Below the pieces are notes generated by a model that saw only the letters and a program-made list of their open reading frames with translations, was not told the DNA's origin and searched no databases. Source: Cymodocea nodosa (lineage: Eukaryota; Streptophyta; Magnoliopsida; Alismatales; Cymodoceaceae). Taken from it: 64,000 nucleotides of DNA. Each line of letters begins with the position of its first letter. Position 1 is the first letter of the stretch. This document shows, piece by piece, positions 3,483-40,988 of the stretch. The stretch covers positions 883,001-947,000 of the forward strand of contig CM072340.1 of NCBI GenBank assembly GCA_036874045.1, given 5' to 3'. Both the position numbers and the translations under genes were made by a program.

Positions 3483-6400
3483 TGCGCTTGGAGAGAAAAG
3501 GGTGTAAGAATGGTATGTATTCTTCATAAGAAAGGGTTGTTGATATTATTGCTTTGCGACTACGTTGGTTGTGAAAGATTGTGCATTCACAAGTTGATAA
3601 AAATAAACTTTTCAAGCATTCGTTTTATTCAATTATGCTTTCCAGTTGCACCTTCGCAGTATCAGCAAGGGTACTTGTTTTCCCTTCCATAGAATATCTT
3701 CTTCATTATGAATGAATTTTTATCTAAAACTAGTCATTCCATCAAATAATTGTCTGAGGTACCCTTGTTTGTAGTTTTAATGTGCATTTTATGACATTGT
3801 TTTACCATCACGCGGTGGTTTTAACCTCCCCTGTTTTTCTCCTATTAGTTACTACATAACGTGCATGTTCATACCACAAAAATGTTTCTGTAGGTTATTG
3901 GTCTTTCTCATCTTTTCTTGGAATTCCGAGCTGTGAATGTGTTTTACCTTGATCCTATTGCACATATGTTGTAGCTGCATTTTTAATCACCTGTTCTTTA
4001 ATCAGTGTCATGTGGTCGTTTTAACTTAATATATCTCGTGGATATTCGAATCCATGCAAAGTCACTGTTGTTGTTAAAGAAAAACTTACATGCTGATACT
4101 GCAAAAAAGGTTCTGCAGGTAGTTGGTCATTCTCTTTTTTTAGTGTAATTCTGAGCGGTGAATGTGCTGCTCTACCAGCATATATCGTATCTGCACTTTT
4201 ATTCACTTGTCCTTCAATAAGTCAGTTTCTGTATCTCTCCCTCAGATTTATCGATTGATTGAATGAATGATCAGGATCAATTTTCTTAGGATGCATGATT
4301 TACATTCGTAGATCACACTAGTAAATGTGTTGCCATTGTTATAGAATGCTGGTGTGATGGTGTTCGGAAGTGGGGGTGCGTGAGATGTTCGCAGGGGTGT
4401 TAGGAGGCTAGCTCGGCGATGATGCTGCGTTGGGCTGTTTTTTCTTTTGAATGACAAGGTAGTGTAGAATTCGTGATAAATAAATAAGATACTTGACAAT
4501 GAGATCCATTGATAAGCCCTTGGCTGGTTACGCTGGTACTGGGTTAATTTGAATTAGGCATTGATTGCAACATCTTATGATGCGCAAAGTCCTCTTCACC
4601 GCTAGTTTGTTACTAACAAAATAGTGGGAAAAAAAATTATGCCTTTCAAATATGACATGAATGCAATATAAAACTTACCAATAATATTTTTAAAATTATT
4701 GGAATCCGATTTTGAACATACTTAAAGTCATAATCTTAATATGTGTTATTAAGAATTTTATTTTGATGATATATATTTTACTTAGTTTAAAAATAGGTCT
4801 AAATAAGTTTAAGTATATATAACTCTTTTAAAGTAAGGATTTAAAAGAAAAATTTTATATTTTTCTAGAAAGAGTATTCTTAATGGATTTACAACAAGAG
4901 AATGTAAGATATCATTCAATGACATAATGAACATGAGTATTTTGAAATTCAAAAGAATATGAGATTATGAAATTATGGAAATAGTGGATGAACGTGGAAT
5001 TTCAATTAGACTACTATAGATAGGAAATACAAGTTGTACTTTAATGAATTTCAATCTAGTATACGAATAATCACTTACACCATACAAAATTAATCTAAAG
5101 AGTTGAACATTAAAAGAAATCAATGTTGAAGATTAACAAGGAATTTAGAAACATAAGGTTTCAACAGTTGCTGAGGAAAAACTTAAAGAAAGAAAGGTGA
5201 GAAGTTTCATATAGTAAATTAGAATATCAAAAGGTGTAAGTTTTCTATATAATTATTTTTATTACTCAAGAGTAAATTTCAAAAGTATTATAAATTATGC
5301 CTTGTTGTAATAAGTTATAAAAATCATGTGTATAATAGATAAAGTATTTAGAAAAGACTTTACAATATATTTTGTGGGATTTAACGTCTAAATTTTTTAA
5401 GTGATAATTCACCTTTGTTTTTGTGAAGTTATTTTCAATCTTCACTCTTATGTGAGTCTGCCGTATAGATAATTTTCTTCTATATATTTTTATCAACGAT
5501 CATATCTTTTGTCAAATTACATAAATTTAGATTTTCTTTAGAATTCTTAACCAAGTAGTTTTGAATCTATTATCTATATCTATTTTTAAAAATTTCTCCT
5601 ATATTAATAAATTCTCTCCTTCTGATAAAATATTTCTTTCTTTCTTTCCTTCTTAAAGATATAAAAAAACCACTTAAACTAATTTTCTTTTATTTTACAT
5701 TTATTTGCTGCGACTCTTATTTTATTTCTAATAATATCTTTTTTTAACTTACATGGTGTCAAGAGTCGTTCCAACAACTCGTACATGGTGGCGTACGCCC
5801 GACAAAGCACGACGTCTAAACAAGCGAATTAACTATTTATTATTTATTATTTATTATTCTCCCCGTCAACGTTCCCCGAACACAAACACGCGCGCCATCC
5901 ATTCATGTACGATATACATTTGAGATTAAATAAAATAATACAGATTCCTTTTTTATTTTATCTTGGTGGATTCCTAACTAGCACCTTAAATTCAAGATTC
6001 CTTGCGTAACCGTACATGTTTCTTGACCAATAATTTACTTTTAAAATTTTCAAATATTTATTAATTAGTTAATCTATAATTTAAGGTAGCTATACCATGT
6101 ATGGTAACTTTCAAATTAATTAATCTATAAAATTCTACCATTCATCTGTAATCGTTTTTTTTTTTTTGCCCGTGGAGTACCAGCCTTACTCGTTTATGTA
6201 CCGAGGCCGAGGTAGATAACTCGCAAAATAAGAGGTGTAAAATGAGACTTTTATTACTTAAGTGAACCTTCGGGTTTTCTAAATAAATTAAAAGATTTAA
6301 AAGCAAAAATTAAGGGCTCCAAATAGATGAACCTTGCGTGATCCGTTTAACTAAATCCGATTGTCGCCCTTGCAACTATAAGATTAAATAATAATAATAA

Positions 6401-7762: not shown

Positions 7763-8749
7763 ATGGGAACGATGGTCGGGCACGTCGGGCCGGGGCTGGG
7801 CTTCTTCGCCGTCGGGCTGTGGCATCTCGTCAACCACATCAGACTTTACTGCGAGAACCCAAGAACCTACGCCTCCCTCCCATGGTTCCCCTCTTCCGTC
7901 ATCTCCCGACACCTCGAACTCTACCTCATCATGATCGGAAGCTGCATCTCCATCGCCATGGAGCTCTTCATCGGCCCCCGAAACCACCAGCCCCTCGACC
8001 CCTCCGACTGGTCCATCCCCTCCAACCACCTCCATAACTTTGAGCATGCGTCTATCTCCCTCACCTTTCTCTCCTACGCCGCCTTCGCCCTCGTTCTCGA
8101 CAAGACCAAGCCCGGCGCCGCCTACGCCCTCGCCCAACTCCTCGCCGCCGCCGCCTTCTCCCAGCAGCTTCTCATGTTCCACCTCCACTCCACCGACCAC
8201 ATGGGCGTGGAGGGGCACTACCACTGGCTCCTGCAACTCGTCATCGCCGTGTCGCTCCTCACCACCCTCATGGGCATCAGTTACGACCGTAGCTTCGTCG
8301 TCGGCTTCGTGAGGTCGGCGAGCATCGTGTTCCAAGGGGTCTGGCTTGTGGTCATGGGCGTCATGCTGTGGACTCCGGGATTCATACCCAAGGGCTGTTT
8401 CATGAAGGACGAGGACGGCCACTGGGTGGTCCGGTGCCATAAGGACGCCGCCCTGCATCGGGCCAAGTCCATGGTGAACATCGAGTTCAGCTGGTACTTG
8501 GTCGGAACCGTCGCGATGGTGACGGGCGTCTACCTCTTCATGGCAAGAAGGTGGCACCCATATTCCGATGTGCCGGAGTACGTGCCGTTGAGCCAGGAGA
8601 CGACCTCCGCTTCCTCCACGACGTCGGAAAAAGGCGACGACAATGAGGAGACGGATAACACCACCGGAGACGTCGACGTGGAGTCGCAGAGGAACAAGGC
8701 CAAGCTTGTGGAGATACGGGGCTTTTCTCCCATGGATTTGGAAAGGTAA
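7763..8749 (+). CDS. TMEM45/DUF716 family multi-pass membrane protein
   Basis: Intact single-exon 328-aa protein. About seven hydrophobic segments (roughly residues 8-24, 51-71, 93-113, 118-140, 154-173, 184-204, 242-261) and the family's His-rich signature, FHLHSTDHMGVEGHYHW at residues 139-155, identify a TMEM45/DUF716 protein. Plant members are predicted endomembrane or plasma-membrane proteins with no settled biochemical function. The C-terminal ~60 residues are a hydrophilic, acidic and Ser/Thr-rich tail. The ATG at 7763 is chosen because the protein then begins MGTMVGHVGPGLGFF, as expected for the family; no better upstream in-frame start was found. The CDS is very GC-rich at third positions, unlike the AT-rich flanks. 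A 28-base poly(A) tract near 8850-8877 lies in the presumed 3' UTR. Confidence 0.93.
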   Translation: MGTMVGHVGPGLGFFAVGLWHLVNHIRLYCENPRTYASLPWFPSSVISRHLELYLIMIGSCISIAMELFIGPRNHQPLDPSDWSIPSNHLHNFEHASISLTFLSYAAFALVLDKTKPGAAYALAQLLAAAAFSQQLLMFHLHSTDHMGVEGHYHWLLQLVIAVSLLTTLMGISYDRSFVVGFVRSASIVFQGVWLVVMGVMLWTPGFIPKGCFMKDEDGHWVVRCHKDAALHRAKSMVNIEFSWYLVGTVAMVTGVYLFMARRWHPYSDVPEYVPLSQETTSASSTTSEKGDDNEETDNTTGDVDVESQRNKAKLVEIRGFSPMDLER

Positions 8750-17900: not shown

Positions 17901-17935
17901 TAAGTCAACCTAGAACTATATAAGACTTGAGTTAG

Positions 17936-18054
17936 GTGCATTTACACCTACTACCAGGCACTGACTCCTATAAGAACTCTGGAGTTAACTGTGTTTGGGC
18001 GAGAGCAGAACCAAGATGGGTGACCACTTGGGAAGTTCTCGTGCAGTGCCTATG
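17936..18054 (+). pseudogene. 5S rRNA-like head of the retroposon
   Basis: Collinear with a whole plant 5S rRNA from its 5' end (GTGCATTTACACC) to near its 3' end (TCTCGTGCAGTGCC), with scattered substitutions throughout and conserved promoter boxes. It is not a functional 5S gene: stem-forming positions are altered, no T-run terminator follows directly, and the sequence continues into the retroposon body. Confidence 0.85.
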
Positions 18055-18365
18055 GGCAGTAGTGTTGACTCTGCTCAAGCATTGGCAAGTTGTAGCTGTG
18101 TGCATCACTTACCAAAGTGGGCCTAGCAAGGCCCCCTACAAGCTTTCGTCTCCTTAGATACTTATGGTGTATACCAGGCTATTTGAGTGTCTATTGAGAC
18201 TCACATGTTATCACCTCCATGGATACTCCTAGTGTATACCAGGCTGTTTGAGTGTTCATGAAGGTTCACCTTCTATCACCTCAAAGGATACTCCTGGTGT
18301 TCACCAAGCTGTTTGAGTGTCTAATGAGGACTTTTTAAATAAATAAAAAAAAAAAAAAAAAAAAA
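17936..18365 (+). mobile_element. 5S rRNA-derived SINE-like retroposon, copy 1
   Basis: Full element of about 430 bp. The first ~119 bp align end to end with plant 5S rRNA, including GAGTTAACTGTGTTTGGGCG (box A region) and AGATGGGTGACCACTTGGGA (box C region). A specific ~95-bp body follows, then three tandem 65-bp units (GATACT at 18157, 18222 and 18287), then a poly(A) tail. The element is flanked by a perfect 14-bp direct repeat, AAGACTTGAGTTAG, at 17922-17935 and 18366-18379. A 5S-type internal Pol III promoter, A-tail and long target-site duplication are the hallmarks of a SINE mobilised by LINE machinery. The plant TRIM Cassandra also carries 5S sequence, but inside LTRs with 5-bp duplications, which does not fit. 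Confidence 0.85.
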
Positions 18366-18410
18366 AAGACTTGAGTTAGATCAATCCTAAAAAGTCAAGC
18401 TTAAGGTCAA

Positions 18411-40439: not shown

Positions 40440-40988
40440 ACAATTAAGGCAAAATACAATCTCTTGAGATAGTTGACCACTTAGGAACTTCTCATGCAAT
40501 GTTTATAAGTAGTAATGCTGATTCTACTTAGGCGTAGGCAAACAGTAGGTATGTATTCTTACCTAAAAAATCATATATCGACATTGTGAGTATTGCTTCT
40601 ATCAGTACTTTTAATCGAACTAGTGAATGAGACCATTTAGATACTCCTAACTAGTTAAAAATGTTTGAGAGACAAAGTGTGTGGTATATGAGATCAAATT
40701 TTAAAAGAGTGTTATTCTAAGTATCTAGGAATGTCTACTATTGCAATGTTTTATCTTCATGGATATTTTTAATGTATATTAGGTTATTTAAGTGTTTATA
40801 AAGTATCACCTATTATCAACTACATAAATACTCTTGATTTAAATGTCTATGGAGTTTTAATTGTTATTACGTATATGGATATTTCTAAAATATAAGTTAT
40901 CTGAACATTCATAAAGTATCATTCGTTATAAACTACATGGATACTCTTAATTTGAATATCTATGAAGTGTCAACTTAAAAAAAAAAAA
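40440..40988 (+). mobile_element. 5S rRNA-derived SINE-like retroposon, diverged copy 2
   Basis: GATAGTTGACCACTTAGGAA and CTTCTCATGCAATG (40468-40501) match the box C region and 3' end of the 5S head of the copy at 17936. GTAGTAATGCTGATTCTACT (40509-40528) then matches its body (GTAGTGTTGACTCTGCT). Further on, phrases such as TGGATACTCTTAATTTGAAT recur in the manner of the 65-bp units, more times than in copy 1, and the element ends in an A12 tract near 40977-40988. The 5' part of the 5S head is missing or unrecognisable, and no flanking duplication was found. It is older than copy 1. Confidence 0.7.

Follow-up and report, generated by a model that had tools for sequence, protein, structure and literature searches.

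A probable 5S rRNA-headed SINE family of Cymodocea nodosa, dispersed and in telomere repeats

What kind of element in the plant Cymodocea nodosa begins with an almost intact 5S rRNA sequence, and what moves it? The sequence lies in a stretch of 64,000 nucleotides (contig CM072340.1 of assembly GCA_036874045.1, positions 883,001 to 947,000, hereafter the window), in which positions 17934-18365 are a SINE made of a 5S-like head, a specific body, 65-bp units and an A-tail (Table 1). The initial annotation had recognised the head, body, tail and flanking duplication, and all are found, with adjustment at the edges. It rightly set the start at the 5' end of the 5S sequence, but the true first base is 17934 (AGGTGC...) and not 17936, because AG opens 43 of 47 copies at the same base and because, where a duplication reaches at least 9 nt (27 copies), it stops exactly before this AG in 24. 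The duplication is perfect, as had been claimed, but 12 bp and not 14 bp long, the longer reading having arisen because AG by chance also follows the 3' duplication. Likewise the array of three 65-bp repeats is present (18167-18321, 2.4 copies with 81% matches in TRF), but as two full units and a partial third of 51 bp, after which the A-tail begins. The RNA of the window copy is predicted to fold more stably than shuffled sequences (z -6.6, 0 of 100), and for the fold of 18140-18337 (z -4.8) none of 200 shuffles is equally stable. Elsewhere in the window is an open frame (7763-8749) for a protein like transmembrane protein 45, whose relatives carry PF04819 (best-scoring named relative among the proteins listed, Colocasia, 59%), and for two proteins of the window the relatives are all distant (best 66% and 42%; best-scoring named, the same Colocasia match and Macadamia, 34%).

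Table 1. Features of two SINE copies in the 64,000-nucleotide window, numbered from its first base
Feature	Position	Strand	Details
5' target-site duplication AAGACTTGAGTT	17922-17933	+	12 bp
SINE sub-family A without A-tail	17934-18335	+	402 bp; 97.3% to 47-copy consensus
Full-length 5S rRNA-derived head with internal control region	17934-18052	+	cmscan RF00001 1-120/120
Family-specific body, head to repeats	18053-18154	+	
65-bp units: 18155-18219, 18220-18284, 18285-18335 (partial)	18155-18335	+	Predicted long hairpin
A-rich tail	18336-18365	+	
3' target-site duplication AAGACTTGAGTT	18366-18377	+	Chance AG directly after
Old decayed sub-family C copy	40467-40834	+	Alignment with L051:4998-5575: 370 columns, 73% identity, E 2.3e-54
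Decayed repeat remnant of the same C copy	40951-40988		Whole copy 40467-40988

The head fits the Rfam 5S model RF00001 over its entire length (model 1-120 of 120, 42.1 bits, E 2.4e-5), with 17934 at position 1 of the model, and is the sole Rfam match at the gathering threshold within the 64-kb window. When heads were tested by cmscan at 17 of 59 loci (the window copy, L001, included), 19 of the 20 copies of sub-family A there again matched at full length, 18 of them above the gathering score; the second copy at L012 and two diverged heads not counted as sub-family A (a 5S-head fragment at L004 and a sub-family C copy at L030) gave no match to the 5S model at E 0.01. Compared with a plant 5S sequence, the head consensus is the same at 87 of 116 positions, and at 39 of 48 in positions 50-97, the control region. 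We infer that this internal control region drives RNA polymerase III transcription of the SINE. The missing TTTT in the SINE consensus was considered as polymerase III evidence and rejected, as 531 of 2000 shuffles likewise lack TTTT, so that its absence has no significance, and 7 of the 47 copies contain it.

Searching the genome (374.6 Mb in 28 contigs) at the DNA level gave 49 matches and at least 47 near-full-length copies, a number that is a lower bound because 40 of 1025 candidates were scored. The 47 start within query base 3 and extend to base 380 or beyond, leaving out two fragments and L002 (which repeats part of L009), and as the best matches to the window copy they are not a random sample. 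They have the fixed 5S 5' end and the A-tail predicted for them, the tail varying in length, and their number establishes a family in place of a lone copy, ruling out a single chimeric retroposition.

The plant element Cassandra, a TRIM, likewise carries 5S-derived sequence and a probable polymerase III promoter, but is an LTR element, with duplications of 5 bp. That the copies here belong to a Cassandra-type TRIM or solo LTR, i.e. a non-autonomous LTR element with 5S in its LTR, is so improbable that we reject it on ends, duplications and tail, for although Cassandra is the known plant element with a 5S-like sequence (PMC10853983, PMC10886601), the first base of our element is the 5S start, its A-tail is of varying length, its duplications are mostly 12-16 bp, and neither paired terminal repeats nor the LTR-type ends with 5-bp duplications named beforehand as contrary evidence were seen in the copies read.

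The manner of insertion is recorded in the flanks of the copies, which we classed as 29 dispersed and 18 telomere-flanked (13 by threshold, 5 by inspection). An exact duplication of its own of at least 9 nt borders 23 of the 29 dispersed copies, and in 20 of the 29 it measures 12-16 nt, in line with the 10-16 bp anticipated. Mismatched pairs of 5' and 3' flanks from the same 29 copies reach 9 nt in 3 of 812 cases and 12 nt in one of 812, and another control with 5 telomeric copies included gave 23 of 1122 mismatched pairs; no exact duplication of 9 nt was found at six dispersed copies (L018, L021, L026, L029, L032, L035). At the 23 dispersed sites the first base of the duplication is A in 20 and the second is A in 18, and C or T precedes it in 20, i.e. 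the cut sites are mostly Y/AA. These duplications and this cut site are, as read from the sequence, marks of L1-type target-primed reverse transcription. The copies thus very probably represent a 5S-headed, A-tailed plant SINE family with L1-type insertion, presumed polymerase III transcription and presumed mobilisation by an L1-type LINE. Judged by eye, several dispersed copies (flanks of L004, L007, L008, L015, L026) are embedded in or adjoin DNA of one kind that resembles AACTTAACGAGTT and may be another favoured target.

The tree built from 46 copies (L010_2910 left out, bootstrap not settled) has short end branches, with a median length of 0.016 changes per site and 16 of 46 at or below 0.01, which indicates that SINE activity is recent. 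The lineage itself is older. Two older sub-families, which the initial annotation had missed along with the telomeric copies described below, have the same 5S head as sub-family A: sub-family B (L058:137-385, about 250 bp, one 65-bp unit), with partial relatives at 88% at L010 and L049, and sub-family C (L051, about 4999-5575, also given from 4998; 578 bp), which has additional body sequence. Their heads fit the 5S model over its full length at 33.2 and 29.2 bits respectively, against the Rfam gathering score of 38. Together with the decayed C copy in the window, sub-families B and C indicate that the SINE lineage is old and that its repeat number has changed.

Eighteen of the 47 copies are situated in CCCTAAA repeats near contig ends, all with the 5' end outwards. 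Within 60 kb of a contig end lie 19 of the 47 copies, compared with about 0.9% of the genome; clustered terminal copies are not independent, and counted by end the comparison is of 10 ends with 28 other copies. All 18 terminal copies that adjoin CCCTAAA repeats are on the + strand at left ends and on the - strand at right ends, the nineteenth (contig C3) being an ordinary dispersed copy, and the 28 non-terminal copies are divided between 16 on the + and 12 on the - strand. In the 46-copy tree 17 telomeric and 29 dispersed copies are intermixed (the labels change 14 times, the mean after shuffling is also 14, and 310 of 500 shuffles are as low), which fits common sources of both groups. At the start of contig C17 the first 10 kb (L042, C17:1-10000) are nearly unbroken CCCTAAA, and SINE and LINE sequence occur there at 30-40 kb.

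Such an arrangement could be read as that of a satellite or segmental duplicate of the subtelomeres, with strays elsewhere, and not of an active retroposon. Copies do stand head-to-tail in the subtelomeres of contigs C1, C7, C10 and C16, and the element contains the 65-bp repeats, but neighbouring telomeric copies are separated by an A-tail and CCCTAAA, 29 of the 47 copies have no telomere repeats at their flanks, 23 of them with duplications of their own, and in the tree the telomeric copies form no cluster. On the duplications and the tree we reject a satellite as the main explanation and regard it as very improbable. Single SINE copies may have been duplicated locally, as L009_8843 and L009_2118 form a pair with support of 100/98.

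An unlikely, though less remote, explanation of the telomeric copies is that they were attached to open chromosome ends, like HeT-A/TART of Drosophila, the 3' overhang priming on the A-tail and telomerase then extending the end. The 5'-outward orientation and the junctions of A-tail with AAACCC are as this would predict. However, 11 of the 18 telomeric 5' junctions fall after CCC or CCCT, the equivalent of a 13- or 14-bp duplication as in the dispersed copies (the other 7 vary), and at L020 the 14-bp duplication includes one non-telomeric base. Insertion into existing repeats by the L1-type route is the reading that we retain for telomeric and dispersed copies alike.

Interleaved with the SINE copies in the same CCCTAAA stretches is a LINE of about 6 kb, which encodes a DUF4283 ORF1 and an ORF2 with Exo_endo_phos (8.2e-7), RVT_1 (1.1e-35) and zf-RVT (1.3e-19) domains. 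By its predicted APE endonuclease, reverse transcriptase and zinc-binding region, and the A-tail present, it is a divergent L1-type element; ORF2 matches 44 database proteins at E <=1e-100 with 27-36% identity (best 35-36%, named plants 27-32%). Distinct LINE-ORF bases make up 57,531 of 136,109 terminal bases and none of 107,006 interior bases, 64,000 of the latter being this window. Where contig ends have readable sequence, 12 of 14 show LINE-ORF matches (the right ends of C14 and C18 show none), and four further ends consist only of N over 10 kb. At contig ends 105 of 105 matches point 5'-outwards (49 + at left ends, 56 - at right ends), these matches being from overlapping queries and so not independent. 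Two chromosome ends carry open ORF2 frames of 1117 aa that are 7 residues apart (L052:763-4113 and L048:5397-8747, both on the - strand), and frames so nearly identical suggest recent LINE activity. The LINE 3' stretches end in an A-run followed by CCCTAAA-type repeats in 9 of 11 cases, the exceptions being L052, whose stretch is cut off there, and L048, which shows repeats only. In 10 of the 11 (by eye) the A-run is preceded by the motif GCAGGACTATCC..CTGATGAAT...GGATAG, for instance near 5740-5795 in L011; it is hairpin-like (CTATCC...GGATAG), is missing from the SINE and is possibly a recognition hairpin.

Is this LINE the partner of the SINE? The earlier description of the SINE as LINE-mobilised follows from the hallmarks of insertion. 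A blastn comparison of the SINE with the LINE 3' ends found the A-run alone in common, other matches having E 0.6 or worse, and a shared SINE/LINE 3' domain was not found in the LINE 3' ends read. Because the A-tail is all that is common to both, the LINE is a putative partner, and because the conserved hairpin-like motif of the LINE is missing from the SINE, a different LINE may move it. We infer that the SINE is moved by the telomeric LINE or by a LINE of the same cleavage preference.

The possibility that another, relaxed plant L1 moves the SINE, whose telomeric presence would then reflect only a shared T/AAA cleavage preference, is a substantial one, if somewhat short of probable. It is favoured by the lack of telomeric LINE 3' sequence in the SINE beyond the A-run, by the dispersal of 29 of the 47 SINE copies when the LINE is absent from the 107,006 interior bases read, and by the many flowering-plant SINEs that are poly(A)-tailed without homology to LINEs (PMC3747384). 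Against it stands the strong enrichment of the SINE in the last 60 kb of contigs, the home of the telomeric LINE. The telomeric LINE is the best candidate partner, and we lean towards it, in preference to another L1, as the element that moves the SINE.

In the mechanism that we propose, TFIIIA and RNA polymerase III would transcribe the SINE from its 5S internal control region, and the protein of an L1-type LINE would capture the A-tailed RNA via its A-tail. The LINE endonuclease would nick the strand reading TT/R, and the resulting T-end would prime on the A-tail, followed by target-primed reverse transcription. T/AAACCC in telomere repeats would be a favoured site on one strand, and as CCCT/AAACCC offers this site on one strand only, every 7 bp, the telomeric copies would all acquire the same orientation.

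SINE3 elements of fish, Lepidoptera and others resemble the window family in their 5S-derived 5' head, specific body and LINE-type insertion, and SINE3 as first described in zebrafish has a 3' domain in common with a CR1-type LINE. The family here differs in its plant host, poly(A) tail and internal 65-bp units, and in that a LINE-derived 3' domain was not found, only the A-run being common to it and the LINE 3' ends read, all from an L1-type element. The candidate partner is L1-type, but the tails listed for 5S-headed DeuSINEs are CR1-type or RSg-1 (PMC3747384). Plant tRNA-headed poly(A) SINEs are alike in A-tail, duplications, dispersed copies and the want of a 3' domain in common with L1, but in the window family the head is 5S. 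The LINE too has analogues, as TRAS/SART are telomere-repeat LINEs of Bombyx. These, like MoTeR and FoTeR of fungi (PMC12857005, PMC7367193), are also non-LTR elements in telomere repeats, but here an L1-type plant LINE occupies TTTAGGG-type repeats and a SINE occupies the same repeats.

SINEs with 5S heads have been published from animals (PMC3272025, PMC10886601) and from the fungus Aspergillus fumigatus (PMC5063351). No plant 5S-headed SINE was found in the accessible open-access literature, a body of text that omits most subscription papers and Repbase, and within that scope the record agrees with the suggestion of a family possibly new to plants. Nor was a LINE-SINE pair in plant telomere repeats found in the accessible open-access literature (including PMC11490119, PMC5738225, PMC4700185, PMC6410037, PMC7360632 and PMC6387171), most subscription papers again lying outside it. 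Screens for plant SINEs that take tRNA boxes as their starting point could overlook families with a 5S head. In AnnoSINE (PMC8825457) the SINE-Finder step uses tRNA box A/B and would not find such a family, and the step dropping tandem-repeat-rich candidates might remove it; candidate heads are later compared with 5S.

In plants the 5S promoter is not confined to the LTR-type element from which it is known, Cassandra, but stands at the head of a LINE-type SINE as well. This bears on the speculation reported in PMC10886601 that Cassandra arose by insertion of a SINE3 into an LTR, a scenario that calls for an element such as a plant SINE with a 5S head. The chances are about even that the chromosome ends of C. 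nodosa comprise telomerase-type repeats, a telomere-targeting L1 LINE and its own 5S-promoted SINE, that this SINE belongs to the first plant 5S-headed lineage, whose several sub-families differ in age, and that the two form a LINE-SINE pair colonising plant telomeres, the SINE also in the interior. The telomeric niche shared by the two elements is a testable plant case of retroelements using telomere repeats.
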